Positions 4,733 to 55,199 of a stretch of DNA of 64,000 nt are shown piece by piece. Location of the stretch: assembly GCA_900318645.1 (NCBI GenBank), contig ONLH01000009.1, positions 1 through 64,000 of the forward strand. The letters run 5' to 3'. The position numbers and the translations under genes were made by a program. Position 1 is the stretch's first letter, and the number at the start of each line of letters is the position of its first letter. Source of the DNA: an uncultured Prevotellaceae bacterium (GTDB lineage: Bacteria; Bacteroidota; Bacteroidia; Bacteroidales; Muribaculaceae). Below the pieces are notes generated by a model. That model made no database searches. It saw only the letters and a program-made list of their open reading frames with translations, and was not told where the DNA came from.

Positions 4733-4753
4733 GTATAATCGGCCTAATGGCCG
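4733..4753 (+). repeat. GTA-hairpin repeat, copy 1
   Basis: GTATAAT foot, then CGGCC / GGCCG arms around TAAT. Member of the eleven-copy family described in the findings. Confidence 0.5.
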
Positions 4754-4778
4754 AGAAATTAAGCCGGCTTAATTTCTC
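4753..4778. repeat. Perfect 26-bp palindrome
   Basis: GAGAAATTAAGCC is followed directly by its exact reverse complement. It could form a cruciform, or bind a dimeric protein. Confidence 0.7.
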
Positions 4779-4900
4779 GCGCGAAGCGCGATTCAATTTT
4801 CAACTAATGAAATATGACACAGTCTCCATTCGTTAGACCTGAGCATCTATAGGCCATTGTTTTGTTTCTTGCTTGAAGCGCGAATCTTGTTGCGGGTAGG

Positions 4901-5443
4901 TCAGAAAACGAGCAGGCCCGTGATGCCGGCAAGGATAATCACCAGGATAGGGTGGATGCGCGTGAAATAGACGATGCAGAACGATGCTACGCAGATGGCG
5001 ATGGTGATCATGCGTTCACTGTTCAGGTAGCCGAAGTTCTCGCTGTTCATCAGCAGCAAGGCGGCCGAGGCAATCAGTCCCACCACCACGGGTCGTAACC
5101 CCATGAAGGCACCCTTGATAAAGGGACTCTGGCGATGGCGCTCAATGTAGTGGCTGGCGATGAGTGTGAGGATGAACGGCGGCAGAACCACTGTGAGCGT
5201 TGCCACAATCGAACCGAATACGCTACCGGTGACTACATAGCCGATGTAGGTCGCACTGTTGATGCCGATGGGGCCCGGTGTCATCTGCGAGATGGCGACG
5301 ATATCGGTAAACATCTGGCTCGTGATCCATCCCGAGTCCACGACTTCGCGCTGAATGAGCGACAGCATCGCATAGCCACCACCGAAGCCGAATAACCCAA
5401 TCTTCAGATAAGCCCATATCAGTTTCAAGTAGGTCTCAAGCAT
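4901..5443 (-). CDS. Chromate-transporter-family half protein (second of pair)
   Basis: 180 residues, the length of one CHR domain; long ChrA proteins have two. Near the N-terminus is the CHR signature FGFGGGYAMLSLIQREVV, then SQMTPGPIGINSATYIGY, with about five to six hydrophobic segments. Its start overlaps the end of the upstream half protein by 8 nt, so the two are probably co-translated and form a heterodimeric transporter. Family members export chromate by exchange with sulfate, but many short-chain pairs have no tested substrate. It is the last gene of the ileS-led minus-strand run. Confidence 0.88.
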   Translation of the reverse strand: MLETYLKLIWAYLKIGLFGFGGGYAMLSLIQREVVDSGWITSQMFTDIVAISQMTPGPIGINSATYIGYVVTGSVFGSIVATLTVVLPPFILTLIASHYIERHRQSPFIKGAFMGLRPVVVGLIASAALLLMNSENFGYLNSERMITIAICVASFCIVYFTRIHPILVIILAGITGLLVF

Positions 5444-6080
5444 GGCTTTCCACCTCCTCTCTGTTTGCTTCGTTGCCTCCGTTCTCTCCGTTGTCTCCCT
5501 TCATCAGCGACCTCAGATAGTAGATATAGCCTCCGATGGCTCCCAGCACGATGAAGATGATGGGGTTGGAGATATAGGGCAGCTTGCTGTAGATGAGCAA
5601 CGCCACTGTCACAGGGATGATAATGGTTTTCCAGTTGATGCCGGCGCTCTTGGCCGTGGTGAGAACGGGAGCGATAATCAAGGCAACGACGGCGGGGCGG
5701 ATACCCTTGAAGATGCGACTCACTACGGCATTGTTCTTGATGGTATCAGGCGTGAGGAAGATGGCGATAGCAAGAATCATCAGGAATGATGGCATGATGG
5801 TGCCTAAGGCGGCACAGATGCTACCCTTCAGCCCCTTCAATCGGTCACCGACAACGACACTGATGTTCACAGCCAGGATGCCTGGCATGGACTGTGCCAC
5901 TGCCAGCAGGTCAAGGAACTCGTCAAGGGCAATCCACTTGTGCTTTTCAACGATTTCACGCTGGATGATGCTGATCATAGCCCAACCACCACCAAAGGTG
6001 AACGCTCCAATCTTGCAGAACGTCAGAAACAGTTGCAGGTACAACCCGCTAGTTGATTCTCGCTTGTCAGTTAATTGCAC
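5436..6080 (-). CDS. Chromate-transporter-family half protein (first of pair)
   Basis: 214 residues. The CHR motif FTFGGGWAMISIIQREIV and SMPGILAVNISVVVGDRLKG are clear, with several membrane segments after them. PGILAVN here corresponds to PGPIGIN in the partner, so the halves differ at the usual signature and are not interchangeable copies. The C-terminus ends in a polar Gly/Asn/Glu tail (GDNGENGGNEANREE) encoded by a 9-bp-period TCTCCGTT-type DNA repeat, and so is probably not part of the conserved fold. It overlaps the next gene by 8 nt. Inorganic anion transport is the likely role; the substrate is not known. Confidence 0.88.
   Translation of the reverse strand: MQLTDKRESTSGLYLQLFLTFCKIGAFTFGGGWAMISIIQREIVEKHKWIALDEFLDLLAVAQSMPGILAVNISVVVGDRLKGLKGSICAALGTIMPSFLMILAIAIFLTPDTIKNNAVVSRIFKGIRPAVVALIIAPVLTTAKSAGINWKTIIIPVTVALLIYSKLPYISNPIIFIVLGAIGGYIYYLRSLMKGDNGENGGNEANREEVESHA
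5475..5501. repeat. 9-bp-period TCTCCGTT repeat inside a coding end
   Basis: Tandem CCTCCGTTC / TCTCCGTTG / TCTCC units at the 3' end of the first chromate-type gene; the same unit recurs at 7092-7135 and 26656-26697. Confidence 0.6.
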
Positions 6081-6105
6081 AACCTCTCCTCCTAAAAAGT
6101 TTACG

Positions 6106-6149
6106 ACCTAAAGTCTAACGTCTGATATCTAACGTCTAACGTTTAAAAC
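6106..6149. repeat. CTAAC-type short tandem repeat
   Basis: The gap between two minus-strand genes consists mostly of CTAAAGT, CTAACGTCT and CTAACGTTT units, spaced 7-9 nt or with small insertions. Similar tracts lie at 19305-19332, 20022-20040, 30620-30650 and 58502-58545. Confidence 0.5.
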
Positions 6150-7028
6150 CTACTTCTTCCGCTCAAATGTGCGTTGTACATGAATCAAGCCATAGTTGCT
6201 CTTGTTCAATCGGGTACGCATGAGCATCAGGCTGTCAACGTATGCCGTGCGTCCACGCTTGATGTCGTAACTCACGTAGCCATAGATGCGGCGAACGAGG
6301 CGCGTGGTGTCACTCTGGATGTCAAGACTCACCCAGCCGTCACTGTTAGTACCGCGTGTGATTTGGGCAGTGCCTCCGTCGCTGTAGTCGATATTCAGGC
6401 TCACTTTGAACTCATTGCCTCCACGCAGCAGCTTGTAGGAAAGCTGATAGCGGTCTCCGGGCTGTTTATTGGCCTCAGGCGGGAAATCAAAGGTGATGAA
6501 ACCGCGACGGGCCCCTGCAGTGAGCATATAATCGCGTGGACCTTTCCACAGGTCGGCACTGTCGCTGTTGATGTCGGTCTTCAGGTTCCTCAGGTGCTTG
6601 CCGTTGGGGCCGCCAGCGCGGGGCTGGGGGCTATGGGTCGGCGCTCCAGTGGGACCTGCCATCATATCCTCGGGTTGACTGTTGTCACGCGGGTCGAGCT
6701 TATCATAGCGTTCCTTGAGCTTGTTGACGGCTTTATCGTAGGCCTTGTTGTAGTCTTCCATGTTGTGGGCATACCACACTAGCGACGAGTCATAATCCTC
6801 TTGGGTAATGCCGTGTTTCTTGAAGATGGATTGCTTCATGACCAGCATGCTTGAGTCGCTCTCATAGTCCATGGAATGGCTGTCAATGTAAGCGTCGGCG
6901 AGTTGCAGGTCAACAATCAGGTCGGCCATCTCGTTGACACTGAGAACTCCGTCGGGCGTTCTGCCACACGACAGCAGGGCCAGCGTGATAGTGAGCAAGA
7001 ATGATATCTGAAGCAGGGCGTTGCGCAT
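6150..7028 (-). CDS. DUF4296 lipoprotein
   Basis: 292 residues with a lipoprotein signal ending LALLSCG. Residues about 25-115 form the DUF4296 domain (LSVNEMADLIVDLQLADAYIDSH, then KHGITQEDYDSSLVWYAHN), a helical Bacteroidetes-only module. After a low-complexity Pro/Gly linker (GPTGAPTHSPQP), the second half (about 150-290) is beta-rich and ends MRTRLNKSNYGLIHVQRTFERKK. It lies 11 nt after lspA. The DksA-like / lspA / DUF4296 order is common in Bacteroidetes. The function is unknown; it probably sits on the periplasmic face of a membrane. Confidence 0.85.
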   Translation of the reverse strand: MRNALLQISFLLTITLALLSCGRTPDGVLSVNEMADLIVDLQLADAYIDSHSMDYESDSSMLVMKQSIFKKHGITQEDYDSSLVWYAHNMEDYNKAYDKAVNKLKERYDKLDPRDNSQPEDMMAGPTGAPTHSPQPRAGGPNGKHLRNLKTDINSDSADLWKGPRDYMLTAGARRGFITFDFPPEANKQPGDRYQLSYKLLRGGNEFKVSLNIDYSDGGTAQITRGTNSDGWVSLDIQSDTTRLVRRIYGYVSYDIKRGRTAYVDSLMLMRTRLNKSNYGLIHVQRTFERKK

Positions 7029-7039
7029 GGAAAAATTCT

Positions 7040-7747
7040 TTATTCTTCCTCAGGATTGACTTCAATAGCTTGATCAGTAGCAGCCGTCGGATCTTCTCCG
7101 TTCTCTCCGTTTTCTCCATCCTCTCTGTTCTCTTCACTGCCGGTAGCAGTGGCCAGGTAGCGGGCATAGAACAGGATGAGCACAATGACGCTCACGCTCA
7201 ACGATGCGTCTGCTACGTTAAAGATGGGCTGGAAGAACACGAAGTGGTTACCACCGATCCAGGGCATCCAGTCGGGCCAGTTCCACTCACACAGCGGGAA
7301 ATAGAACATATCCACAACCCTGCCGTTGAACAGGCTGGCATAGCCGCCTTCGGGCGGGAAAAACTGTGCCACTTGAGGTGGCATAGGGCTGTTGAAAAGC
7401 AGGCCGTAGGCAATACAGTCAATGACATTGCCCAGTGCTCCTGCGGTGATCAGTGCGATGCAGGCGATGTAACCTTTGGGTATATCGCCACGCTTGCGCA
7501 GACGCCACAGGTAATAGATGAAGGCGCCCGATGCGATGATACGGAACAGCGTGAGCAGCAGTTTGCTGCCCAGTTCCATACCGAAGGCCATTCCGTTATT
7601 CTCGATGAATACCAGCCTGAACCAGGAGGTGATCATCAACTCTTCGCCATAGTAGAAATGGGTCTTGACCCAAATCTTCACGGCTTGGTCGATGACAATA
7701 ACCAGCGCGATAAGGAGCGCTGCAAGTTTGCCGTTAGAAAGTTTCAT
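7040..7747 (-). CDS. lspA: Signal peptidase II (lipoprotein signal peptidase)
   Basis: 235 residues from the ATG at 7747; the upstream in-frame start would overlap the preceding gene, and MKLSNGKLAALLIALVIVIDQ is the typical N-terminus. Four membrane segments are visible. The catalytic Asp pair lies in GALGNVIDCIAYG and FNVADASLS; NNGMAFGM matches the conserved NxGxAFG block. It cleaves prolipoproteins before the lipid-modified Cys in the inner membrane. As in other Bacteroidetes there is an insertion between the two Asp motifs (FPPEGGYASLFNG...). The C-terminal tail EENREDGENGENGEDP comes from a 9-bp-period repeat and is probably dispensable. It is 10 nt after the DksA-like gene. Confidence 0.95.
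   Translation of the reverse strand: MKLSNGKLAALLIALVIVIDQAVKIWVKTHFYYGEELMITSWFRLVFIENNGMAFGMELGSKLLLTLFRIIASGAFIYYLWRLRKRGDIPKGYIACIALITAGALGNVIDCIAYGLLFNSPMPPQVAQFFPPEGGYASLFNGRVVDMFYFPLCEWNWPDWMPWIGGNHFVFFQPIFNVADASLSVSVIVLILFYARYLATATGSEENREDGENGENGEDPTAATDQAIEVNPEEE
7092..7135. repeat. 9-bp-period TCTCCGTT repeat in lspA 3' end
   Basis: Units CTCCGTTCT, CTCCGTTTT, CTCCATCCT and CTCTGTTCT run in tandem and encode the acidic Glu-Asn-Gly tail of LspA. Confidence 0.65.
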
Positions 7748-7757
7748 GACGATAACG

Positions 7758-8144
7758 TCAACGTTTCTTTTTGCTCTTGGCTTCAATCTCCTTGCCCTCA
7801 ATCGACAGGGTAGTGTGGGGAACGGCTAGCAGGCGCTCCTTGGGGATGAGCTTACCCGTGATGCGGCAAACACCGTAGGTCTTGTTCTCGATACGCACCA
7901 GAGCTCCCTGCAGCTTGCGGATAAACTCCAGCTGACGTTGCAGCTGTTGGCTTGAGATCTCCTTCTGTTGGGTCGAGGCGCCCTCCTCCATCATCTTGAA
8001 GGTGGGATTGGACTCATCCACCATGATGTCGTTCTTGAGCTGCTCGTAGTTCTCTTGAGCCTGTTTGAGCTTGGCCAAGATGAGTTCTTTGAACTCTTGC
8101 AGTTCGGCATCGCTGTATCTAACTTTCTCTTGCTTTTTGTCCAT
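7758..8144 (-). CDS. DksA/TraR-family regulator without full zinc-finger cysteines
   Basis: 128 residues. A charged coiled-coil N-terminus (about 10-90, with ELQEFKELILAKLKQAQENYEQL) precedes a DksA/TraR C-terminal segment, YGVCRITGKLIPKERLLAVPHTTLSI. Canonical DksA has four Cys; only one is visible here, so the fold probably does without zinc. Family members bind the RNA polymerase secondary channel and adjust initiation. It sits between ileS and lspA, an order seen in many Bacteroidetes. A role in transcription is inferred from the family. Confidence 0.85.
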   Translation of the reverse strand: MDKKQEKVRYSDAELQEFKELILAKLKQAQENYEQLKNDIMVDESNPTFKMMEEGASTQQKEISSQQLQRQLEFIRKLQGALVRIENKTYGVCRITGKLIPKERLLAVPHTTLSIEGKEIEAKSKKKR

Positions 8145-8184
8145 ATTCAGGATATGATTGATGATAATCTGATATTCTTCGGGA

Positions 8185-11100
8185 TTAAGCTTTCTCGACT
8201 TTCACGGGAAGCGTCCAGCCGTCCATATCGAGTTCGACAGCGTCAGCAGGAGCAACCTCACCGATGGTGATGCTGTTAGCGAGCACCTGATGGGCGATGT
8301 AGTCGCCGTAGGTCTTCACTGCCCCGTCGGTGCGCTCGTCGGGAGCGATGGTGACGTTGATCTTGTCGGTGATGTCAAAGTCCTTGCTCTTACGCACGTT
8401 CTGGATGCGGTTCACCAGTTCGCGGGCGATACCCTCAAGGCGCAATGCGTCGGTGACGGTGATGTCGAGGGCGACGGTCAGGTTGCCTTCGTTGGCGACG
8501 AGCCAACCGGGGATGTCCTCGCTGATGATTTCCACATCGGCAAGTTCGACAACGGCCTGCTGTCCGTCGAGGTCAACGGTGAATTGACCGTCTTTCTCAA
8601 ACTGGTTAATCTCGGCCTGTGACATGCTGGTGATCTTGGCTGCAAGAGCCTTCATCACCTTACCGTACTTCGGGCCTAACTTCTTGAAGTCGGGCTTTAC
8701 ACGCTTGACAAGGATGCCGGCGTCATTGCCCACAAGCTTGATCTCCTTGACGTTCACCTCACCCTTGATGAGGTCGGCAACGGCCTCGATGTCGGCATGC
8801 TGCTGCTCGTCAAGAACGGGCACCATGATGGCCTGCAGCGGCTGGCGAACCTTCAGGTTCTGCTTGCGGCGCAGCGACAGTACCATCGAGGTGATGTCCT
8901 GAGTCGTCTGCATGCGCTGCTCGAGTTGCTTGTCGATGGCGCTCTCGTCACACTTGGGGAAGCTGGCCAGATGAACCGAGTCCTCACTGTGCGTGAGGTC
9001 GCGGTACAGGCGGTCGCTGTAGAAGGGTGCCACAGGAGCCATAAGCAGGGCAACGGTCTTCAGACACTGGTACAGCGTCTGATAAGCAGCCAGCTTGTCG
9101 GTGGTCATCTCTCCGCCCCAGTAGCGCTTGCGGTTCAGGCGAACATACCAGTTGCTCAAGTGGTCACCAACAAAGGTGCTGATGGCACGGGCAGCCTTGG
9201 TGGGCTCGTAGTCCTCCAGGTCGGCCTGTACCTCGGCTATGAGGGTGTTGAGCGACGAGATGATCCAGCGGTCGATTTCGGGACGTTCGTTCAGGGGCAC
9301 CTGCGGGGCTTCGGGGTCAAAGTTGTCCACGTTGGCATACAGGGCAAAGAACGAGTAGGTATTGTAGAGCGTACCGAAGAACTTGCGGGCTACTTCGGTC
9401 ACACCTGCCTCGTCAAACTTCAGGTTGTCCCAAGGCGATGAGTTGCTGATCATGTACCAGCGCAGCGGGTCGCTACCGTATTTCTCAATGGCGCCGAACG
9501 GGTCAACGGCGTTGCCCAGGCGCTTACTCATCTTGTTGCCGTTCTTGTCAAGCACCAGGCCGTTGCTGATGACGTTCTTGTAGGCCACGCTGTCAAACAC
9601 CATCGTGGCGATGGCATGTAACGTGAAGAACCAGCCACGGGTCTGGTCAACGCCCTCGGCGATGAAGTCGGCAGGGAAATAGCGACGGCTGTCCACGGCT
9701 TCCTTGTTCTCAAACGGGTAGTGCAGCTGGGCATAAGGCATCGCACCGCTGTCAAACCACACGTCGATCAGGTCGAGTTCGCGCTTCATGGGCTTGCCGC
9801 TTTCGCTCACCAGCATGATGTCGTCAACGTAGGGGCGATGGATGTCGATTTTATTGTAGTTCTCCTCGCTGTAGTCACCGGGGACGAAGCCTTTGTCCTT
9901 GTAGGGATTGCTCTTCATCACGCCGGCGGCGACAGCCTTCTCGATTTCATTGTACAGTTCCTCGATGCTGCCGATGCACTTCTCCTCGCCGTCCTCGTTG
10001 CGCCAGATGGGCAGCGGGGTGCCCCAGTAGCGGCTACGGCTCAGGTTCCAGTCGTTCAGGTTCTCCAACCACTTGCCGAAACGGCCCGTACCGGTGTGCT
10101 CGGGCTTCCAGTTGATGGTGTGGTTGAGCTCGATCATGCGATCGCGGCTCGCGGTATCGCGGATGAACCAACTATCCAGCGGGTAGTACAGCACGGGCTT
10201 GTCGGTACGCCAGCAGTGGGGATAGTTGTGGGTGTGCTTCTCCATCTTGAAGGCGGTACCTTCCTGCTTCATGCGGATGCAGATGTAGATGTTCAGGTCC
10301 TCGGCCTTGTTGGCGGCAGTCTCGTCAAACTTGCCCCCAACAGTATATTGCGGGTCGTAGGCGTTCTTCACCCAGCGGCCGGCATATTCTTTGTACAGGT
10401 CCACGTTGACGAACTCTTCAACGAATTTCTCGTCAAGGTCCTCAATGAGGTAGTATTTACCCGTGAGGTCCACCATCGGGCGGGTCTCTAGCTTCTTGTT
10501 GATCATGTACAGGGCGGGGATGCCGGCGGCCTTGGCAACGCGGGCATCATCGGCACCGAAGGTGGGTGCGATGTGAACGATACCGGTACCGTCCTCGGTG
10601 GTCACATAGTCACCGGGGATGACACGGAAACCATTGTCGTTACCGACAACCTTGCCGTCAACCTTGTCAACGGGCTTCACCCAGGGGAACAGCTGGGCAT
10701 AGCGCATCTCCAGCAGGTCCTGACCCTTGAACTGGGCGATGACCTTCCAGGGAACAACCTTGGCACCATCGGTGAACTCCAGTGGCTGGTCCTTGCCGTC
10801 GGCCTTGAAGTAGGCATCGACGCGGGCCTCGGCCAGCAGGTAGATGGCGGGCTTGCCGTTATAGGGATTGAAGCTCTCGACAGCGACATAGTCAATCTTG
10901 TTGCCAACGCACAGGGCGGTGTTGCTGGGCAACGTCCACGGAGTGGTCGTCCACGCCAGCACATAGGCGTCGTTGAAACCTTCGTCGGCAACCTCGTGAA
11001 TCTTTTTGATCACGGGGTGCTCGTCACCGCTCAACACGGTAAACTGGGCAGTCACGGTCTGGTCCTTCACGTCGCGGTAGCAGCCCGGCAGGTTCAGCTC

Positions 11101-11679: not shown

Positions 11680-11711
11680 TTTTAAATAATGTAACTTCTC
11701 AAATTTGGGTG

Positions 11712-11719
11712 CAAAGGTA
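11712..11719 (-). promoter_or_regulatory. -7 box of ileS promoter
   Basis: TACCTTTG on the minus strand about 33 nt before the ileS ATG. No TTG lies at the usual distance, so only the -7 element is supported. Confidence 0.5.
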
Positions 11720-11784
11720 CAACAATTTTGGGCAACTAGAGCACAAAAGCCTATAATTTTGACTTAGGAGCCTCATGATAGGCA

Positions 11785-11824
11785 GCGAAGGCGCTAAGAT
11801 TCTTGGTTTTCTTAGCGCCTTCGT
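11785..11824 (-). terminator. Stem-loop between the PAP2 gene and ileS
   Basis: Arms GCGAAGGCGCTAAGA (11785-11799) and TCTTAGCGCCTTCGT (11810-11824) with a 10-nt loop. There is no clear T run on the minus strand, so termination is likely but not certain. Confidence 0.6.
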
Positions 11825-11867
11825 GAGTGTAAGTGAGCTTTTTCGTTACTATGTCAACGGTCGTTGA

Positions 11868-12719: not shown

Positions 12720-12751
12720 AATAAAAATTAATTAAAAATCTTTTGACCCCG

Positions 12752-12780
12752 CAAAGGTACACCAAAAAATCGTTTCACAA
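12752..12780 (-). promoter_or_regulatory. Promoter of the PAP2 gene
   Basis: Minus-strand TTG (12780-12778), 18-nt spacer, TACCTTTG (12759-12752), about 32 nt before the ATG. Confidence 0.65.
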
Positions 12781-12863
12781 GAAAACAAGGAAGAGAAAAT
12801 GCACCGCCAGTCCTCTATCCCACGTGCTGCAGTCCAGTCGTGTCCCCGCGCCTGTCGTGTTCC

Positions 12864-12886
12864 GTGGGCGGTGGCTTGCCACCGTC
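12864..12886 (+). repeat. GTA-hairpin repeat, copy 2
   Basis: GTGG foot, arms GGCGGTGGC / GCCACCGTC around TT, in the gap between divergent genes. Confidence 0.5.
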
Positions 12887-12969
12887 AGCATCGTCATCCC
12901 GGTCACTAAGTTTCAACGTCGTTCACGTTATTTAGTGGGGATTTAATCTTTTTTTAGACGGGAAGGTAT

Positions 12970-12977
12970 TACCTTTG
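12970..12977 (+). promoter_or_regulatory. -7 box upstream of mscS-type gene
   Basis: TACCTTTG, 21 nt before the chosen ATG at 12999. It overlaps the upstream alternative start codon at 12975, which is therefore unlikely to be used. Confidence 0.6.
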
Positions 12978-12998
12978 TGCCTGAAAAATAGAACAACT

Positions 12999-14153: not shown

Positions 14154-14192
14154 AATGACCCACCCGTTATATCCGTTATCCCCTAGGCAAGA

Positions 14193-17734: not shown

Positions 17735-17782
17735 TCTTGTCACTGCCCCTCTCGAGTGTGATAGACCTCACCTCCTGTAATC

Positions 17783-17806
17783 GTAGCGCGAGCCTTCGGC
17801 TCGTGC
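17783..17806 (+). repeat. GTA-hairpin repeat, copy 4
   Basis: GTAG foot, arms GCGCGAGCC / GGCTCGTGC around TTC. Confidence 0.6.
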
Positions 17807-17878: not shown

Positions 17879-17886
17879 CAGCCACG

Positions 17887-22591: not shown

Positions 22592-22615
22592 GTATTGCAA
22601 GTTGGCGTTTTGCAA
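22592..22615 (+). repeat. GTA-hairpin repeat, copy 5 (weak)
   Basis: GTATT foot, then TTGCAA repeated after a 9-nt loop; the shortest stem of the family. Confidence 0.4.
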
Positions 22616-22686
22616 TCCTTTGGCTTGTGTGAGTTCTCGTTTCCCCTTGTTTTTGCTGTTAATAAACGTTAATTGACGCCTGCCTC

Positions 22687-26595: not shown

Positions 26596-26628
26596 ACACC
26601 CTCCTGGCTTTTTCCCCGTCCCGTTGAG

Positions 26629-26652
26629 GTAGTGCAAGCCTCTGGTTTGTGC
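26629..26652 (+). repeat. GTA-hairpin repeat, copy 7
   Basis: GTAG foot, arms GCAAGCC / GGTTTGT, loop TCT, preceded by CCCGTTGAG. Confidence 0.6.
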
Positions 26653-32957: not shown

Positions 32958-33074
32958 CCGTGCCGTCCCCGTTGGGACACCCCCTCCGTGCCCGTGCTAT
33001 TTCTGTTGGGACGCCCCCTCCGTGTCCGTGCCGCCCCCGTTGGGACACTCCTTTCGTGTCCGTGCTGTTTCCGT
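32958..33074 (+). repeat. 34-bp tandem repeat, 3.4 copies
   Basis: Three full units at 32958-32991, 32992-33025 and 33026-33059 and a partial fourth to 33074. Each starts CCGTGC and carries the core GTTGGGAC; differences are mostly C/T transitions. It ends directly on the GTATT foot of GTA-hairpin copy 8. Confidence 0.85.
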
Positions 33075-33094
33075 ATTCCGAGCTACCAGCTCGG
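33073..33094 (+). repeat. GTA-hairpin repeat, copy 8
   Basis: GTATT foot, arms CCGAGCT / AGCTCGG, loop ACC. Confidence 0.65.
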
Positions 33095-33140
33095 ACCACC
33101 CGCCCCGCTCCCAGCTCTTCAATCCCGTTAAATAACTCTA

Positions 33141-35386: not shown

Positions 35387-35402
35387 GTTATCAATTGTTG
35401 TG

Positions 35403-35424
35403 GTATTGCGGGCCATTGGCCCGT
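35403..35424 (+). repeat. GTA-hairpin repeat, copy 9
   Basis: GTATT foot, arms GCGGGCC / GGCCCGT, loop ATT. Confidence 0.65.
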
Positions 35425-35432
35425 ATGCCGAT

Positions 35433-43145: not shown

Positions 43146-43153
43146 TTGCCCCA

Positions 43154-45632: not shown

Positions 45633-45757
45633 TTATTGTGATTTCTGTATTATTTAACCTACAAAATTACAAAAAATCCCGCAAACATCATGCCACCTCC
45701 CTCAACAATAAGTTTTATTAACGAAAAAATCCCCCTCTCGTCCTCCATCCTGTTGGG

Positions 45758-45779
45758 GTATTGCAAGCCTCTGGCTTGC
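45758..45779 (+). repeat. GTA-hairpin repeat, copy 10
   Basis: GTATT foot, arms GCAAGCC / GGCTTGC, loop TCT; preceded by CTGTTGGG. Confidence 0.65.
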
Positions 45780-45794
45780 ACAATTTACAAGTCA

Positions 45795-45831: not shown

Positions 45832-45862
45832 CTTCAATCTTCTTGCATTAACAGCTCTCGCT

Positions 45863-46255: not shown

Positions 46256-46263
46256 AATGCTGA

Positions 46264-46734: not shown

Positions 46735-46835
46735 GCTAAATACTGTGTCTTTTAAATTTTTAAAGTCTCAAAAAATGAGAAGAATCTCAACTATTTGCTG
46801 GTGAGATCCCTCGCGGTTAATATCTTTCAACGCTG

Positions 46836-46843
46836 CAAAGATA
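46836..46843 (-). promoter_or_regulatory. -7 box upstream of greA
   Basis: TATCTTTG on the minus strand; no TTG at the standard distance. The 100-nt leader contains short AT-rich inverted repeats. Confidence 0.45.
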
Positions 46844-46958
46844 GGCAAAATTTTTGATTAGTATTGTCGGATTGTTAATAAAATCACGTCTTTTTTAAAA
46901 AATTAACCGATGATGGTGGTTTTGCTATGGTTTTCGGTGATACTTGGCGACCATTTTG

Positions 46959-48395: not shown

Positions 48396-48435
48396 GTTAA
48401 TACCTTTACATTATATAAATAACGCTTTGACTTTT

Positions 48436-49377
48436 CTACCACTTGATGTCAAACACCTGATAGGCAATGCCTCGGCCCCCCAGGCGACATTTCTGGCGAA
48501 CAAGCCCCTCGTTCAGGTAGCGGCCATGGTCCTCGTTGCTGATGCCGAAGTCGAAATAGCGGTACCCGTCTTCAGCGCTCTTCTTGATAAGATTATCAAA
48601 CAGCAGGGTCAATGCCTTGCTGTCTTTGCCACGAGGCGATGCCCCGATGTATTGGCAGTGAGCAACGGGTTGGGAATAGTACATGACCACGCCTGCCAGC
48701 AGTTCGCCGTCTAGGGTGGCAGTATATAGTTTGATGTTCTCGGGGAAACGCCCGACCAGCAGCTTGATCTCTTCAAGCGTGTGGACCGGTCGTGTACTGT
48801 AACGTTCGCCAAGCAGCGATGACAGCAACTCCCAGTAGCCTTCCCAATCATCGCTCTGACCTGTCTTGATGCCGGCTTTGCGGGCTGCATTAGAGCCGCT
48901 CTTGTTGCCGCGGTCAAGCGGTAACGGGCATGTCAGGTCGATGGTGGTAGATATGTTCGTCTCAATCAGCGATGAACCGTGGCGGAATAGGGCATACAGG
49001 TCTTCCTCACAGGGGTAGCGGTGATAGATGTGGGGCACGGCTTTATAGACAAACTTCTTGAGACCGTTTCCCTGCATCCAGGCTATGGCGGCATCCATCA
49101 CCTCGACCATCACAGTGGTGTCAAAGTGCTTCAGTGGCACGATCCACCCGCCGTAGGTCAACCCGCGGTGTGACCACAACGTGTCTCCGTCGATATTGGC
49201 AGGCAGCAGACCGCACATCTTACCGTCGCGTAGTGCGACAAGTGAGCAATCCGTGAAGCGGTCACTGTGATAATCCATATATCCACGCTCATGAAGGAAC
49301 GTCCCGTTACGGCTGTTCTTCACCATTTCGTCCCACTGGCCCTTCATTGAGCCGTCATATTTCACAATTTCTATCAT
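48436..49377 (-). CDS. GNAT/FemAB-like acyltransferase
   Basis: 313 residues from MIEIVKYDGSMKGQWDEMV; the upstream 22 codons are unlikely to be translated. Residues about 150-300 form a GNAT-type fold (LYTATLDGELLAGVVMYYS, YIGASPRGKDSKALTLLFDNLIKKSAEDGYRYFDFG). The N-terminal half (NGTFLHERGYMDYHSDRF) resembles the lipid-linked-sugar and FemAB-like acetyltransferases found beside polysaccharide genes. It probably adds an acyl or aminoacyl group to a sugar or peptide. It is co-directional with the flippase, which supports a role in surface-glycan synthesis. Confidence 0.78.
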   Translation of the reverse strand: MIEIVKYDGSMKGQWDEMVKNSRNGTFLHERGYMDYHSDRFTDCSLVALRDGKMCGLLPANIDGDTLWSHRGLTYGGWIVPLKHFDTTVMVEVMDAAIAWMQGNGLKKFVYKAVPHIYHRYPCEEDLYALFRHGSSLIETNISTTIDLTCPLPLDRGNKSGSNAARKAGIKTGQSDDWEGYWELLSSLLGERYSTRPVHTLEEIKLLVGRFPENIKLYTATLDGELLAGVVMYYSQPVAHCQYIGASPRGKDSKALTLLFDNLIKKSAEDGYRYFDFGISNEDHGRYLNEGLVRQKCRLGGRGIAYQVFDIKW

Positions 49378-49469
49378 TTTTTCAAATAAAATGTAATCCG
49401 CCAATCCCAGTAGATATCGGTCCTGTCCGTCATCTATGCTCAATCCGTCAACTCCTCAAGAATAAAACG

Positions 49470-49477
49470 CAAATTTA
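49470..49477 (-). promoter_or_regulatory. -7 box for the GNAT-flippase pair
   Basis: TAAATTTG on the minus strand, about 90 nt before the ATG; the nearest TTG lies 23 nt upstream, slightly too far. It is next to the divergent plus promoter. Confidence 0.45.
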
Positions 49478-49490
49478 GCAATAAAAGTAT

Positions 49491-49498
49491 TACCTTTG
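49491..49498 (+). promoter_or_regulatory. -7 box of the DAACS gene
   Basis: TACCTTTG, 21 nt before the ATG at 49520. Confidence 0.6.
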
Positions 49499-49519
49499 CA
49501 CAAAATTAAAATAAATCAT

Positions 49520-50704
49520 ATGAATCTTAGAAGAATACCACTCCTCCCTCGTGTCATCATCGCAATCATTCTGGGTGTTGTCTGTGGCATGTTTTTCCCT
49601 GAATGGGCAGTTAGATGCTTCGTGACTTTCAACAGCATCTTCAGTCATTTCCTTTCATTCTTGATTCCGCTCATCATCGTGGGACTGGTGACCCCGGCCA
49701 TCGCCGATATCGGAAAGGGAGCGGGCAAGTTGCTCCTTATCACCGCATTGATTGCTTATGGCGACACCGTTTTTTCGGGTTTCTTGAGCTATTTCACCAG
49801 TGTCGGTGTGTTCCCGTCGCTCATTGATCGCGCTCAGGCCGCTGAGGCGGTAGCGACCGCCAAAGAGTTACAGCCCTTCTTCACTATCGAGATTCCGCCT
49901 CTGCTCGACGTGATGAGTGCATTGATAACGGCATTTGTCTTGGGCTTGGGTATTGCCTTCTTTGAATCGTCTAACCTAAAGAAAGCTTTCGACGAGTTCC
50001 GCGACATCATTGCCAAGACCATCGAGGTGGCGCTCATTCCCATCCTACCTTTATATATCTTCTCTATCTTCCTCAACATGTCGTTCTCGGGACAGGCATG
50101 GCGCATTATCCAGGTCTTTATTGCCATCATCGGAGTCATCTTCTTGATGCACATCTTGCTGTTGGTGTTCCAGTATTGTCTTGCAGGACTCATTGCTCAT
50201 CGCAATCCTTTTAGGGCATTATACAATATGTTGCCTGCCTATTTCACTGCTTTGGGCACCTCGTCCTCGGCCGCGACCATCCCTGTCACTATGCGACAGG
50301 TGAAGCTCAATGGCGTCAGTGAAGGCATCGCTGGCTTTGTAGTGCCCCTGTGTGCGACAATTCATTTGTCGGGAAGTGCTATGAAGATAACGGCTTGTGC
50401 CGTCGCCTTGCTCATCATGCAGGGTGGGGTCATCGACATCGCACATTTCGCGGGCTTTATTCTCATGCTCGGCGTGATGATGGTAGCAGCACCGGGTGTC
50501 CCTGGTGGCGCTATCATGGCCGCCCTCGGTGTCTTGCAGTCTATCCTGGGCTTCACTCCCGAGCAACAGGCAATCATGATTGCTCTATACATCACCATGG
50601 ACAGTTTCGGCACCGCCTGCAATGTCACTGGCGATGGCGCGATAGCGCTCGTTGTGGACCGCATCTACACGGGAAAATCTCAATCTCAAAGGAGCGCATT
50701 GTAG
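49520..50704 (+). CDS. Dicarboxylate/amino acid:cation symporter (DAACS)
   Basis: 394 residues with eight or more membrane segments and two re-entrant loops. The family is shown by LSFLIPLIIVGLVTPAIADIGKGAGK near residue 50, the Ser-rich hairpin TALGTSSSAATIPVT, VPLCATIHLSGSAMK and the second hairpin APGVPGGAIMAALG, with the final MDSFGTACNVTGDGAIALVVDR block. It imports glutamate, aspartate, serine or C4-dicarboxylates with sodium or protons; the exact substrate is not clear. It stands alone. Confidence 0.93.
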   Translation: MNLRRIPLLPRVIIAIILGVVCGMFFPEWAVRCFVTFNSIFSHFLSFLIPLIIVGLVTPAIADIGKGAGKLLLITALIAYGDTVFSGFLSYFTSVGVFPSLIDRAQAAEAVATAKELQPFFTIEIPPLLDVMSALITAFVLGLGIAFFESSNLKKAFDEFRDIIAKTIEVALIPILPLYIFSIFLNMSFSGQAWRIIQVFIAIIGVIFLMHILLLVFQYCLAGLIAHRNPFRALYNMLPAYFTALGTSSSAATIPVTMRQVKLNGVSEGIAGFVVPLCATIHLSGSAMKITACAVALLIMQGGVIDIAHFAGFILMLGVMMVAAPGVPGGAIMAALGVLQSILGFTPEQQAIMIALYITMDSFGTACNVTGDGAIALVVDRIYTGKSQSQRSAL

Positions 50705-50794
50705 CTCAGGCAACTAATGAAGTGTGAAAAATGCTCAATCTGTGGCTTTTTTAGAGGAAAACGAAGTTTTTTTAAAAAAAAGTATGAAAAAATT

Positions 50795-50823
50795 TTGTAT
50801 GTGAGAAAATGATATTAACTTTG
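50795..50823 (+). promoter_or_regulatory. Promoter of a candidate small RNA
   Basis: TTG (50795-50797), 18-nt spacer, TAACTTTG (50816-50823). Confidence 0.65.
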
Positions 50824-50828
50824 TAGCG

Positions 50829-50917
50829 CATAAAAGGGAAAAATCGATTTTGATTTATCAAAGAGTTTCGGATTAACTTACTGTCGTGATTGATAGAATG
50901 GTTAATCCATTTTTTTT
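50829..50917 (+). ncRNA. Candidate small RNA of about 90 nt
   Basis: A promoter-like pair lies directly upstream and the segment ends in a stem GGATTAAC (50870-50877) / GTTAATCC (50901-50908) followed by eight T (50910-50917), a textbook intrinsic terminator. No open frame with a start codon fits between. The start is estimated from the -7 box. The sequence does not match an RNA family I recognise; it could also be a leader or an attenuator of the downstream gene. Confidence 0.5.
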
Positions 50918-50918
50918 G

Positions 50919-50985
50919 TCCTTACCCCAACCCCCCATAGCTCCTCATCACCCCCCGTGACCCCCTATTTCCCCTTTCCCTGACC
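50919..50985 (-). other. G-rich tract with G-quadruplex potential (minus strand)
   Basis: Read on the minus strand, runs of three to six G separated by short loops occur five or more times (GGGG, GGGGG, GGGGGG, GGGGGG, GGGG). Confidence 0.6.
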
Positions 50986-51043
50986 ATTAAAAAATCATTT
51001 CATACATTAATCCTACCACTTCATCCAATACGTTTCAATTTCT

Positions 51044-51075
51044 TTGGATAACCCCCATCGGCCGTCATAACTTTG
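51044..51075 (+). promoter_or_regulatory. Promoter of the beta-barrel gene
   Basis: TTG (51044-51046), 21-nt spacer, TAACTTTG (51068-51075), ATG at 51116. Confidence 0.7.
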
Positions 51076-51115
51076 CATCATCAAACAAATAATAACCACT
51101 AAAAAATCAAAAGTT

Positions 51116-51751
51116 ATGACAACCAAGACTTCTAACATGGACAAGGTCCTCAACGTGAACTTCAACAAGAGTGTTAATCAATCAGTAAAGCGTATCGCTT
51201 GGACTTCGATGCTGACTCTGGCATTGATTCTGTTCGCTGCAGTACCCGCAACTGCCCAGATTAGTTTGGGCGTCAAGGGTGGCGTCAAACTTGAGAATGC
51301 TCGAATGAGCAGCGACGTCATTGACAGCGATAATCGCATCGGCAGCTCACTCGGTGTGGTGATGGATGTGAATATCCCCATCATCGGGCTGGGAGTAGAA
51401 ACTGGTGCGATGTTTACCACTCGCTCCTATGGTGATAATGGACGCAAGCTCCATTCTATTGATATCCCGGTCAATGCGCGTTACCGTTTCTCACTGCCGC
51501 TGGTCGAGAAGATTGTTGCTCCCTTCGCTTTTACGGGCCCTGAGGTTTCAGTAAGAATGAATATGGGTGCTTGGGGCAATGCTGGTGATGGCAGTCCCAT
51601 TGAAAGCAAAACAAGTCTCTCCTGGAACGTAGGCGCTGGCGTGGATCTGATCAAGCACGTGCGTGTGGCTGCTGCCTACAATATCTCTTTATCCAAGGAA
51701 AAGATGTATCGCGACAACTCTTGGAGCCTCAGTGCCGCCTACATGTTCTGA
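51116..51751 (+). CDS. Outer-membrane beta-barrel protein (PorT/OmpX-like)
   Basis: 211 residues. A long N-terminal segment precedes the hydrophobic core of the signal (SMLTLALILFAAVPATAQ, cleavage near 48); a second Met at residue 8 is an alternative start. The mature part alternates hydrophobic and polar residues in eight strands, from ISLGVKGGVKLENARMSS to LIKHVRVAAAYNISLS and the final SWSLSAAYMF with terminal Phe, the C-terminal signal for the BAM complex. It belongs to the small opacity/PorT-like barrel group. The function is unknown; adhesion or membrane stability are possible. Confidence 0.85.
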   Translation: MTTKTSNMDKVLNVNFNKSVNQSVKRIAWTSMLTLALILFAAVPATAQISLGVKGGVKLENARMSSDVIDSDNRIGSSLGVVMDVNIPIIGLGVETGAMFTTRSYGDNGRKLHSIDIPVNARYRFSLPLVEKIVAPFAFTGPEVSVRMNMGAWGNAGDGSPIESKTSLSWNVGAGVDLIKHVRVAAAYNISLSKEKMYRDNSWSLSAAYMF

Positions 51752-51771
51752 GCCCTCTAATTACTAATGCA

Positions 51772-51805
51772 ACAGGAGCGCCGACGGTCTAGTCAGCGCT
51801 CCTGT
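51772..51805. terminator. Terminator between convergent genes
   Basis: Arms ACAGGAGCGC (51772-51781) and GCGCTCCTGT (51796-51805) with a 14-nt loop. Confidence 0.8.
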
Positions 51806-51829
51806 GTTTATATAACCCTTGTTAGTGGA

Positions 51830-54800
51830 TTAGTTGGCCAGGATGATGTCAAGCAGTGCATTGACGTCGGCAATGTTCACCTCACCGTCGCCGTTCACAT
51901 CAGCAGCCTTGCTGAATGTGTTGCTCAGGATGTGGTCGATAACGGCATTAACGTCAGCGATATTGATTTCTCCATCACCATTCACGTCACCGGGCTTCTC
52001 GACGGGCTGAGGACCAGGCTCAACATACGTCGAACCACAGACACCGTAAGCCTCTACACCCTCAACAGCAAAGCTGATGGTAGTCGGCATCGTGCCGTCC
52101 TCGTTGGCCTTGGCGGGCAGGCACTTGATACCACTGTGGTGCAACGGGTTGTTGACATCCAGGGAAACGCTGTTGCGGATGGACTCTTCGTCGCTGTTCG
52201 GTGCGATGTAGCTCCAGTAGATATAGTCTCCATCTCCGTTGATCTGAGCAACGTTAGCCAGCTCGCCACTGTCCTCAGCGCCCTCGACCTTGATGGGAGA
52301 GTCGTCAATGAGTTCGCAGTCGGCGATGCGCAGGTTTTCGTTACCCGCAAGGTCGGCACCGGTCTCCAGGTTCTCGATCTTGCTCAAGGCGATGCGGTAG
52401 ATGCCGGGAACACAGCCATAGGGGTCGGTCTGCACTTGCATGTACAGGTAGCCGTTCTCCTCGTCGAGGTAGAAGGTCTTGATGATGGCATCCTTGAACA
52501 AGGCATTATAGTGTTTGGGCTTGCCTTGGCCGCCATCAGGATAGATGTCGTTCTTCTTGAAGCGCAGCAGGCAGATGCCGTTGAACTTCTTGCTCATCCA
52601 GAAGATGCCGTGCTTGTCCTGGGTGAAGCCGCCGGTGATTGAACCCCAGCTGATCTCATCGTTGTAGTAGGGCAGCCACTGGTTCTGCAACAGGAAGGGC
52701 TGCTGGCCGTACAGGCCCGTGGTGTCGGCGTTCATCTCATGGATACCCACATTGCGGTCGCTGATGTAGATCTTGTTCTCATTCTTGTCAATGAACATGG
52801 TGAACGGGTCCTCACTGGGAGCGTAACCCACATTATTTAATACGGTCACGCGGTAGAAGATGCCGTTGGTGTTGTTCACATAGAACAGCTCACCGTCACC
52901 CAGAGGCTGGTTGGGATCCTGATAGGTGAAGCGGTCACCGGCAACGGCGACATACACGCGGTTCTTGTAGCTTTGCAGTGTGAAGGCGTGCTTGCCGGCG
53001 TTGAAGTTGGTGTTCACAATGTTGCCGTCCTCGTCCTTGTACATCAGGCTGCCGTTAGTGGTGGAGAAGTAAAGACCGGTCGGGCAACCCAGCGTCGAGC
53101 CTTCACCCGAAATGCTCTCGTCTGCGACGATGTTCAGGTAACGCCACTGGTTGGCGCTCTTGAAAGCATTTACCGAGCTGGGAGCTACCTTACAGATGAC
53201 GTCGCTCTGGCTCTCGTTGAATACGCCGGCGGCAAGAGCGGGCGTGTTGACATTGAGCACGCGCAGCTCCTGGATGGTGGCGGGAACAGAACCTGGCTCC
53301 ATGTAGTTCACGTTGGCGGGAATCTCCATGCTGTTAAGAGCAGTGCACCCCTCAAAGCAGTTGCGCATCATGTTGGTCGTGCTGGTGGGTAGTGTGACAC
53401 TGGAGAGTTGCTGGCAACCGGCGCACAATCCCTGTGGTATCTCGTTACGGCCCTCGGCGATGACGATTTCTTTCAGAGCCGAGCCGGCAAAGACGTTCTG
53501 CCCGACAGTAACATTATTCTCGAGCGTGTAGGACTCGATGTCGCTGTAGGCGAAGCCAAAGTTGCCGATGGTGGTCAAGGCGGGCAGGTCAACACTCGTG
53601 AACGGGGCATAAGCCAGACCGTAGTTGTCAATGTTTGTTACGGTAGCATTGCTGTAATAGGTACTGATTTCGCCCTCATGAGCACTTACCAGCAGGCGGG
53701 TGCCGTTGGCATTAAGCAGTACGCCGTTGTCAAGTTTGAAACTGGGATTACCCTCGGCGAGGGTGATGTTGGCTAGTGTGGGGATGGGAGCAAATGCTCC
53801 AGTGCCAATGCTGGTTACGCTAGCAGGAATGATGACATGCGCTATCTGGGTGCCTGCAAAGGCTTGAGTGCCAATCGCGGTCAACTGTTCGGGAAGCGTA
53901 ATTTCACCATTAAGCTGAGTGTTCTCAAAGGCACTTTGACCGATTGACGTCAATGCGCTGGGGAAGTGGAAAGATGTCAGCCCCGTGTTGTAGAACGCCG
54001 TGATGCCGATGCTGGTCACGTTTTCACCCATGCTCACACTACGCAGGTTGCGGCAGCCGTTGAAGGTGCTCTGCTCGATGGTCGTGACGGCAGCGGGAAT
54101 ATCGATGCCCGTCAGTGACGTGCAGCTTGCAAAGGCGCTGTTGCCGATACTGATCACCTTGTTGCCTTCCTCGAAGCTGACATTATTCAATGCCGTGCAA
54201 CCTTGGAAGGTGGTACCCTGGATCGTGGTCGTCTCGCCGCCAATAACCAGCGTCTTGAGCGCGCCCATGTTGTGGAACGGCTGCTCGTTGTTCAAGTAGG
54301 CGCTGGCATCCACGTTTCGGCCCATGTAGATGTACTCAATGCTGTTGAGGGCGCCACGTGCTTCGGCATTGGCACCAAAGGCTGTCACCTTCATCACAAC
54401 AGCGTTCTCGCCTTCAGCAATGATAAAGCGTTTCAAGTTCGGGCAGTTCGCAAACTCCTCACTCACGGGTTTGCTCCAGCCGGGAACAATCGTGACTTCC
54501 TCAAGTCGCGTACAGCCGTTGAACACGCCGGTACCGATGTTGGTCGCTGTGAGGGGAATGGGGCTCGCCAGCAGTGAGGTACAGCCCTTGAAGCAGTTAC
54601 GGCCGATGGTAACACATGTCGCAGGCAGCTGCAACGAGGTCAGGTCCCTGCACTCAAGAAACGAATTGGCTGCAGTTCCCACTACTGTGTACTCCGTGCC
54701 TTCATAGGAAATCTTCTCGGGAATCACGATGTCGCCGCTGTAGAAAAGCGTGTCGGCAGGTGTGTCGGCAGTCGCCTTGATGATGGTGTACTTGGCGATG

Positions 54801-54943
54801 GTCGCGGTGCCATCGTTCTTGGTCGTGTAGTTGATGCCGTCAACTGTGATGCTGGCTGCTTGCACAGCAGTTGCCGTGGCAATGCAGCACACGGCTAGCA
54901 GCAGACGACTCAACCATTTCTTGTGAGTAAAAATTTTGTTCAT
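51830..54943 (-). CDS. BspA-type leucine-rich-repeat surface protein with dockerin
   Basis: 1037 residues with a signal peptide (about 1-29, ending TATAVQA). Residues about 80-580 hold around twenty LRR_5 (BspA/Treponema-type) repeats, for example ITSIGQSAFENTQLNGEITLP, LTAIGTQAFAGTQIAHVIIP and VTSIGTGAFAPIPTLANITL. A non-repetitive region follows (about 615-960), with beta-propeller-like features such as NRVYVAVAGDRFTYQD, KIYISDRNVGIHEMNADT and KHGIFWMSKKFNGICLL. The end is a dockerin pair, GDVNGDGEINIADV / ADVNGDGEVNIADV. BspA-type repeats mediate binding to host proteins or other bacteria. It is the largest exported protein in the window and has its own promoter. Confidence 0.9.
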   Translation of the reverse strand: MNKIFTHKKWLSRLLLAVCCIATATAVQAASITVDGINYTTKNDGTATIAKYTIIKATADTPADTLFYSGDIVIPEKISYEGTEYTVVGTAANSFLECRDLTSLQLPATCVTIGRNCFKGCTSLLASPIPLTATNIGTGVFNGCTRLEEVTIVPGWSKPVSEEFANCPNLKRFIIAEGENAVVMKVTAFGANAEARGALNSIEYIYMGRNVDASAYLNNEQPFHNMGALKTLVIGGETTTIQGTTFQGCTALNNVSFEEGNKVISIGNSAFASCTSLTGIDIPAAVTTIEQSTFNGCRNLRSVSMGENVTSIGITAFYNTGLTSFHFPSALTSIGQSAFENTQLNGEITLPEQLTAIGTQAFAGTQIAHVIIPASVTSIGTGAFAPIPTLANITLAEGNPSFKLDNGVLLNANGTRLLVSAHEGEISTYYSNATVTNIDNYGLAYAPFTSVDLPALTTIGNFGFAYSDIESYTLENNVTVGQNVFAGSALKEIVIAEGRNEIPQGLCAGCQQLSSVTLPTSTTNMMRNCFEGCTALNSMEIPANVNYMEPGSVPATIQELRVLNVNTPALAAGVFNESQSDVICKVAPSSVNAFKSANQWRYLNIVADESISGEGSTLGCPTGLYFSTTNGSLMYKDEDGNIVNTNFNAGKHAFTLQSYKNRVYVAVAGDRFTYQDPNQPLGDGELFYVNNTNGIFYRVTVLNNVGYAPSEDPFTMFIDKNENKIYISDRNVGIHEMNADTTGLYGQQPFLLQNQWLPYYNDEISWGSITGGFTQDKHGIFWMSKKFNGICLLRFKKNDIYPDGGQGKPKHYNALFKDAIIKTFYLDEENGYLYMQVQTDPYGCVPGIYRIALSKIENLETGADLAGNENLRIADCELIDDSPIKVEGAEDSGELANVAQINGDGDYIYWSYIAPNSDEESIRNSVSLDVNNPLHHSGIKCLPAKANEDGTMPTTISFAVEGVEAYGVCGSTYVEPGPQPVEKPGDVNGDGEINIADVNAVIDHILSNTFSKAADVNGDGEVNIADVNALLDIILAN

Positions 54944-55009
54944 TTGCGATAAGTTTTAATGATTAATATTTAATGTGATTAGTCAATTCAATCTGATAGT
55001 TTCAACCCA

Positions 55010-55038
55010 CAAATTTAATCAATAATTCTATAAGTCAA
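55010..55038 (-). promoter_or_regulatory. Promoter of the LRR/dockerin gene
   Basis: Minus-strand TTG (55038-55036), 18-nt spacer, TAAATTTG (55017-55010). Confidence 0.65.
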
Positions 55039-55175
55039 TCACATTCCCCACATTTTTTTATTTCTCCATTCCTTTCCCCCTCTTTTTCCGTCATCCTCCG
55101 TCTCTCTCCATCAGGGTCGCTCTGTACTGTGGCTCCAGTCTCGATCCCTTGTTCTCCCTTTGTTGTTATTGTCCC

Positions 55176-55199
55176 GTAGGCGGCGGCTTTGCCGCTGTC
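55176..55199 (+). repeat. GTA-hairpin repeat, copy 11
   Basis: GTAG foot, arms GGCGGCGGC / GCCGCTGTC, loop TTT. Confidence 0.6.

Follow-up and report, generated by a model that had tools for sequence, protein, structure and literature searches.

Dispersed GTA-footed hairpins in a Muribaculaceae genome, probable REP elements with candidate cognate RAYT transposases

Hairpins of the window and their family

The window, a stretch of 64,000 nucleotides (positions 1 to 64,000 of the forward strand of contig ONLH01000009.1, assembly GCA_900318645.1, from an uncultured Prevotellaceae bacterium placed by GTDB in the Muribaculaceae), lies on contig C35 of a 3.6-Mb genome in 75 contigs. Eleven short hairpins, named here by the positions 4733, 12864, 15201, 17783, 22592, 25043, 26629, 33073, 35403, 45758 and 55176, had been described in the original prediction as intergenic copies of one design with a GTAT, GTAG or GTGG foot and covarying arms, and had been read as a family like the repetitive extragenic palindromic (REP) elements, mobilised by a REP-associated tyrosine transposase (RAYT). 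All eleven sequences were found at these positions (Table 1).

The layout of the element was GTY-N2/3-GTA(T/G)-hairpin. A genome search with the pattern GTATTGCAAGCCNNNGGCTTGC at up to 3 mismatches returned 14 matches, two of which were reverse-strand readings of copies already counted, and 0 when the pattern was read backwards. The copies of alignment A2 (n = 14, seven from the window and seven others, picked for having hairpins) had the consensus CCTGTCGnnGTATTGCRAGCC-NNN-GGCTYGC in common. The GT six bases before the foot was invariant in 14/14 of them, with a chance of about 1/16 per copy, and had been used neither in the original prediction nor in the search pattern.

Membership was assessed with R2, a covariance model built from 26 non-window copies (alignment A6) drawn from the better matches. 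The unfiltered R2 scan of the window recovered 45758, 15201, 25043, 17783, 26629, 35403 and 33073 (E 1.5e-10 to 9.8e-5), and 22592 weakly; the latter was also matched by covariance model R1 (E 0.012 in a 94-kb search, 0.45 in the whole-genome search). Beyond these eight, the scan gave 20 matches (E 0.23 to 10), of which the top two were copies already recovered, read on the opposite strand; 4733, 12864 and 55176 gave no R2 match in the window up to E 10. The single design proposed for all eleven therefore held for seven copies (E <= 1e-4) and weakly for 22592, was seen at 12864 and 55176 as a layout only, and failed for 4733.

When the arms were left free (GTY-N2/3-GTR-hairpin), the window gave 11 matches, compared with an average of 0.8 and never more than 3 per window in 40 resampled windows. 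Among the 11, nine were hairpins of the original prediction, the remaining two were at 3102 and 28231, and all were on the + strand. A looser scan for GT[AG][TG] with any hairpin returned many further matches across the window, so that foot plus hairpin alone is weak evidence. Membership of 12864 and 55176 in the REP family is unproved. The arms of 55176 had a single genomic occurrence at up to 3 mismatches, and a second repeated family made up of these two was unsupported, the genome search at up to 3 mismatches having returned 55176 itself only.

Table 1. Hairpins of the window, their coordinates and the search results that bear on them
Feature	Position	Strand	Evidence
Non-member: other dispersed palindromic repeat AATCGGCCTAAYGGCCGAGAAATTAA	4733..4762	+	18 genomic sites, <=3 mismatches, control 0
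REP-like hairpin of other sequence, GTT at -5, GTGG foot, GGCGGTGG/CCACCGTC	12859..12886	+	architecture match; no R2 match up to E 10
Probable REP copy, GTC tag, GTAT foot, 8-bp stem TGCAAGCC/GGCTTGCA, 3-nt loop	15195..15223	+	R2 E 3.2e-10
Probable REP copy, GTA tag, GTAG foot, 9-bp stem GCGCGAGCC/GGCTCGTGC	17777..17806	+	R2 E 1.4e-5
Probable degenerate REP copy, stem apparently disrupted	22592..22633 (R2 match 22598-22633)	+	R2 E 0.06
Probable REP copy, GTC tag, GTAT foot, TTGCAAGCC/GGTTTGTAA	25037..25066	+	R2 E 4.7e-8
Probable REP copy, GTT tag, GTAG foot, GCAAGCC/GGTTTGT	26623..26650	+	R2 E 1.6e-5; gap without copy in 16/16 relatives examined
Probable REP copy, GTT tag, GTAT foot, TCCGAGCT/AGCTCGGA	33067..33095	+	R2 E 9.8e-5
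Probable REP copy, C51-RAYT subfamily, TTGTTGTG then GTATTGCGGGCC hairpin	35397..35425	+	R2 E 2.1e-5
Probable REP copy, GTT tag, GTAT foot, TGCAAGCC/GGCTTGCA	45752..45780	+	R2 E 1.5e-10
REP-like hairpin of other sequence, GTC at -5, GTAG foot, GGCGGCGGC/GCCGCTGTC	55171..55199	+	architecture match; no R2 match up to E 10

The hairpin at 4733 was rejected as a family member. The pattern AATCGGCCTAATGGCCGAGAAATTAA taken from it belongs to another repeat with 18 genome sites (control 0), no R2 match was obtained and the upstream GT was absent. By eye, a stretch with CATAATTCGCCTCA in the gap of one relative (L252) resembled this repeat.

The predicted covariation of the arms was borne out. Both-side changes were found at 7/9 pairs in the 14 A2 copies, and at 7/8 pairs in 92 distinct copies from 48 sources, in which 95.8% of cells were paired; the larger alignment leans towards structure because it was fitted to the model, whereas A2 was aligned independently of it. 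Since the 14 copies had been picked for hairpins, their percentage paired is biased upward, and the both-side changes are the evidence. The foot bases G, T and A were each kept in 91 of the 92 distinct copies, which had been gathered with a model containing GTA, and the fourth base was T in 71, G in 17, C in 3 and A in 1. Among the feet originally proposed, GTAT was the most frequent. The upstream tag was often CGTC or TGTC. The 3' tail CA was present in 11/17 GTAG copies and 28/75 GTAT copies; these are related copies and CA was one of eight dinucleotides counted, and the difference is not used as support.

A whole-genome R1 search returned 45 matches at E <= 10, the weakest likely due to chance. 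After 15 of these had been left out (ten of them in the C51 array described below) and 12864 and 55176 added, a list of 32 genome copies was obtained. Outside open reading frames (ORFs) were 25 of the 32, and 7 overlapped some ORF of at least 80 amino acids, one being a 1401-nt ORF. The intergenic position predicted for all copies therefore applied to the window except at 45758, where the copy overlaps a 555-nt ORF with a TTG start and no Pfam match that is probably not a gene, and only in part to the genome. Most dispersed copies of the own genome were single, and inverted hairpin pairs were seen at the C40 RAYT (see below) and at C27. Copy-holding gaps of the window tended to be C-richer on the + strand than other listed gaps, and contained repeated CCGTCC/CCGTG words which, by eye, resembled the spacers of the C51 array.

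All 13 listed copies of contig C35 (10 in the window and 3 beyond) were on the + strand. In six genomes (the own genome, G083, G093, G067, G082 and G069), neighbouring loci agreed in strand 24 to 4 (P 1.8e-4), and 14 to 4 without C35 (P 0.03). For this count, copies less than 2 kb apart were merged, RAYT-flanking loci were dropped by hand, and 11 C35 copies were used with 12864 and 55176 left out; G065, G090 and G077 gave no usable pair. No clear relation of the strand bias to replication was seen from fourfold-site GC skew corrected for gene strand.

RAYT genes and the hairpins beside them

Five Pfam Y1_Tnp matches were obtained genome-wide, and the weakest, on C40, was located between two GTATTGCAAGCCNNNGGCTTGC pattern matches. 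This Y1 (HUH) transposase gene, C40:36887-37936, carries an inverted hairpin pair on each side, which is the arrangement that the original prediction had proposed to look for and the layout of a RAYT flanked by bacterial interspersed mosaic elements (BIMEs) or REPINs. The C40 clade had 9 members among 37 genus genomes, the own copy and eight at 76-81% identity. A GTATTGCGAGCC-type hairpin adjoined the gene in 9/9 of them, and R1 hairpins were present on both sides in 7/9 and on one side in L141 and L146.

The paralogue C51 is 53% identical to C40. On one side, following the gene, it has an array in which GTATTGCGGGCT/AGCCCGCA hairpins are repeated in tandem about every 78 bases. The window copy 35403 has the TTGTTGTG lead of this array and nearly the same arms, and looks like a stray member of the C51 hairpin subfamily. 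A third paralogue, C71, had one decayed hairpin downstream when inspected by eye. At C18, a truncated match, one GTA hairpin with quite other arms was found. Other RAYT clades showed other arms on the same foot, such as GCGCCGC, CCGAGAC and CCGCGAC. A strict GTA hairpin was found within about 500-600 bases of 22/43 RAYT loci. In a named-collection sample made up of the best 80 of at least 331 transposase relatives, mostly rumen and gut Bacteroidales assemblies and many labelled Muribaculaceae or Prevotellaceae, GTA showed the strongest near/far contrast of 20 trinucleotide feet (0.63 vs 0.08 per kb); the next was GTG (0.54 vs 0.11 per kb), and near flanks were richer in hairpins of every foot.

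The RAYT is about 320-350 amino acids long (gene of about 340 codons). In 22 aligned sequences, the own ones included and all chosen from those with open frames, H132 and H134 (H-x-H), Y193 and NPRR (N197, P198) were invariant, and the motifs were mostly DHxH with YxxDNPRR. The Pfam Y1_Tnp cut-off was passed (23.4 vs 23). The nearest NCBIfam family was REP_Tyr_transpos (37.3 bits, E 2.3e-9), compared with E 0.064 for the IS200 family.

No Pfam family matched the C-terminal third of the protein up to E 1. A profile search returned six transposases and four DprA sequences, the latter at profile positions 194-274 of 322 (E 0.01 to 0.22; 5mll, 4ljr and 4ljk at 0.01, 3uqz at 0.22), matches that are weak taken alone. 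A structure model of the relative L167 (51% identical to the C40 protein; 37 relatives of 72 open-frame loci) had a mean predicted local distance difference test (pLDDT) score of 92.5 and a predicted template modelling (pTM) score of 0.83. Foldseek matched it best to IS200/IS605 TnpA chains, and also to the E. coli TnpA-REP/REP complex 4er8, to ShosA (8zva, E 1.9e-5) and to DprA structures (7.5e-4 to 1.5e-2; 3maj at 7.5e-4, 4ljk from 1e-3). The Foldseek table gives no aligned range, and the DprA and ShosA matches were assigned to the C-terminal domain because the profile matches fall at 194-274. From the profile and the model, the RAYT is predicted to carry a C-terminal DprA-like domain with a Rossmann-type DprA fold. 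DprA is a stand-alone protein that binds single-stranded DNA and loads RecA, and ShosA is a DprA-like defence protein.

Several further features of Y1 and RAYT loci were recorded. In a divergent RAYT relative at C64:46112-47140 (L137), the C-terminal part can be aligned to its counterpart in the C40 protein, and similar genes were found in several genus members; a scan of its flanks for GTA hairpins found none, and it is possibly a domesticated form. At L024 (1441-1515), two 35-nt arms form a perfect inverted repeat around a spacer of 5 nt, about 1.3 kb from the RAYT hairpin pair. Three short Y1 genes, L020, L021 and L022 (on C58, C48 and C50), have a YI.NQ..HH motif like that of subclass 1.2 in the available sections of PMC6006769, and are each flanked by 60-85-nt imperfect inverted repeats; the table in those sections lists no REP for subclass 1.2. 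The palindrome AAGTKCGTCKWMGACGMACTT at 49-69 of the window had 13 genome sites (control 1), two of which flank the IS200-like Y1 gene C48:81993-82331, and four contigs carry a copy less than 80 bases from their own start.

Spread across genomes and gaps without a copy

R1 matches (E <= 1) were present in 31/37 genus members, the own genome included, and in 1/24 genomes of other families of the order, at E 0.66. Within the same family, 6/56 genomes of other genera had a match, two of them clear and both of genus g29: G049 with 13 matches (best E 3.0e-5) and G029 with 6 (best 3.1e-4). The remaining four had a single match each (E 0.11 to 0.92). The hairpin family is centred on the genus and is not strictly confined to it, and the g29 matches leave the odds of the REP reading unaffected because that reading does not rest on strict restriction to the genus.

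RAYT matches were found in 30/37 genus members. The seven without one had 0, 1, 0, 0, 4, 1 and 0 hairpins, and the thirty with one had a mean of 14.2 (P 1.7e-4, kinship ignored); when only genomes of at least 80% completeness were counted, 4 were compared with 29 (P 0.002). Per genome, the nine with the C40 type had 24.2 hairpins on average, and the 21 that carry only RAYTs of other types had 9.9 (P 4e-4, kinship likewise ignored).

Orthologous gaps were compared in relatives, as the original prediction had suggested. A 14.1-kb query had matches in at least 59/61 genomes, the own genome included, and among the matches listed, both neighbours lay on one contig for the 26629 gap in 16 relatives and for the TPR-TrmA gap in 14. 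No R1 match at E <= 1 was found in 16/16 of the former or in 14/14 of the latter, a looser comparison because the interval of the window genome holds an extra dockerin gene. The 26629 gap was short (83-261 bases) in 13/16 relatives, with similar sequence before the downstream gene, and held inserts of 2.0-3.1 kb in the other three. Of the 16 relatives, eleven were searched genome-wide with R1, and each of these has the family at other sites.

The REP reading, its rivals and known systems

The hairpins are very probably REP elements, that is, non-autonomous single-strand elements recognised by a cognate RAYT (TnpA-REP) encoded elsewhere in the same genome. Support for this part of the original prediction comes from the flanking pairs at C40, the C51 array, the co-occurrence with RAYT and the empty 26629 gap, and we infer that the hairpins are mobilised by the RAYT. 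Enrichment and covariation were both observed, and the copies were not all fixed as terminators. The best explanation of the cognate types joins C40 to GTATTGCGAGCC/GGCTCGC and C51 to GTATTGCGGGCT/AGCCCGCA.

TnpA-REP is described in the available sections of PMC8266576 as binding a single-strand hairpin through its foot, followed by a nick and strand transfer. In the RAYT studied here, the GTA(T/G) foot and the stem would be the parts of the folded strand to which the HUH/Tyr core binds. The core would nick single-stranded DNA beside the hairpin and join the hairpin strand at another place, probably in the course of replication. The conserved GTY, which lies 2-3 nt before the foot, may act as a second recognition or cleavage tag, the predicted C-terminal DprA-like domain might hold the single-stranded DNA, and the lone copies between genes would represent insertions, later subject to decay.

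Several results weigh against the REP reading. Neither excision events nor insertion junctions or target duplications were observed, and the 26629 gap of the window is longer than the shortest gaps of the relatives by more than the element itself. The C40 RAYT is below the NCBIfam REP_Tyr_transpos cut-off (37.3 vs 80 bits). The strict scan of flanks of about 500-600 bases found no GTA hairpin at 21/43 RAYT loci, one was near only 29/80 further RAYT loci, some of these chance-like, and random 1100-nt stretches of own loci had a GTA hairpin in 51/400, a control inflated by the choice of loci containing copies. The genomes behind the co-occurrence P values are incomplete and related. Among 19 RAYT-positive genomes of other genera of the family, R1 matches were present only in G049 and absent in 18; this would be expected if the arms differ, but equally if REPs are absent. 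G029 has six R1 matches, and a search with the C40 protein gave no RAYT match there (E <= 0.001).

The fusion of RAYT and DprA-like domain may represent a previously undescribed Bacteroidales type of REPtron, which is put forward as a tentative and rather doubtful extension. The domain would hold single-stranded DNA or hand it to recombination, REP spread would be coupled to DNA uptake or recombination, and a two-part tag of GTY and GTAT would be used instead of GTAG alone.

It is improbable that the hairpins are host functional elements kept by selection and not mobile, such as terminators, stabilisers of mRNA 3' ends or protein-binding sites. Most listed copies are indeed outside ORFs, and several lie between convergent genes or less than 100 nt from a stop codon, but no U-run followed the window copies, and a terminator scan of 12800-52799 (4733 and 55176 lie outside this stretch) gave one weak site overlapping a copy (26626), with totals of 20 and 17 compared with 17.6 and 15.9 in shuffles, which is no excess. 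The lack of a copy in all gaps compared and the tracking of RAYT by hairpin number within the genus also oppose host elements, and the terminator reading was rejected on the scan and the empty 26629 gaps.

It is very improbable that the hairpins are not REPs and derive from ordinary IS200/IS605 insertion sequences as their ends or relics. IS200/IS605 TnpA chains were the best structural matches of the model, but the gene of about 340 codons and the YxxDNPRR motif are unlike class 1 in the table in the available sections of PMC6006769, NCBIfam favours REP_Tyr_transpos over IS200, and inverted pairs of the hairpins are seen alongside many lone copies. An IS200/IS605 element would have a short TnpA (about 150 amino acids) with constant left and right ends; the present protein has about 340 amino acids with an extra C-terminal domain, and its gene has REP pairs as flanks. 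This was rejected as the main explanation. Chance, with eleven unrelated palindromes picked by eye, is true of 4733 as regards the REP family and possible for 12864 and 55176, but is next to untenable for the whole, since seven copies were recovered by a model built without them and the architecture was found 11 times against 0.8 expected.

REPs and RAYTs are already known, also from Bacteroidetes (PMC6006769 and PMC3733652; these and the other articles are cited from the sections available). How REPs move is still unsettled. Two departures from the REPtrons of the cited articles are seen here, a foot that is mostly GTAT and a RAYT with a predicted DprA-like domain; neither such a RAYT nor a GTAT-footed REP family was found in the open-licence literature of PubMed Central (PMC), which is a weak absence. 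For the closest type, nine genomes of a single genus have the long RAYT with its putative DprA fusion next to REPs of its own, which offers a natural test of whether the handling of single strands by the host recombination system contributes to REP spread. The GTAT foot likewise lends itself to testing the guide model, under which a different foot should shift the point of cleavage.

With the REP/BIME and TnpA-REP systems of E. coli, Stenotrophomonas and Marinomonas (PMC8266576, PMC6006769), the present system has in common a short palindrome preceded 5' by a tetranucleotide foot, pairs of copies in inverted orientation, a RAYT beside its own REPs, HUH with a single Tyr and the fold match to 4er8. 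It differs in the fourth foot base, mostly T, and in the invariant GT at -6. REP-flanked RAYT subclasses are short in PMC6006769 (151-213 amino acids in its table, compared with about 320-350 and a predicted DprA-like domain here), and those with a large C-terminal domain are without REPs. Because that study made GTAG or GTGG a requirement of its REP search, it could have overlooked a GTAT family. The TnpA-Y1 subclasses 2.4 and 2.6 of PMC6006769 likewise have Bacteroidetes hosts and flanking secondary structures, but have NHxH with YIxNNP or YIH[QN]NP, compared with mostly DHxH and YxxDNPRR here, and a DprA-like domain is unmentioned for them in the available sections.

Pseudomonas REPINs (PMC3116915) are likewise inverted REP doublets with a RAYT, and the doublet is the probable replicative unit there, whereas most dispersed copies of the present genome are single and doublets were seen at C40 and C27. 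The CGTC-tagged REPs of PMC3733652, reported from Bacteroidetes among others, resemble the CGTC or TGTC tag found here, but their CGTC is the element end adjoining the stem and no associated transposase is given; here the tag is separated from the stem by GTA, and the family has an associated RAYT. The RAYT is matched by DprA (PDB 5mll, 4ljk, 3uqz and 3maj) through the profile, in its C-terminal part, and through the model, and by ShosA (8zva) through the model, with the difference that the putative domain is here fused behind a Y1 transposase.

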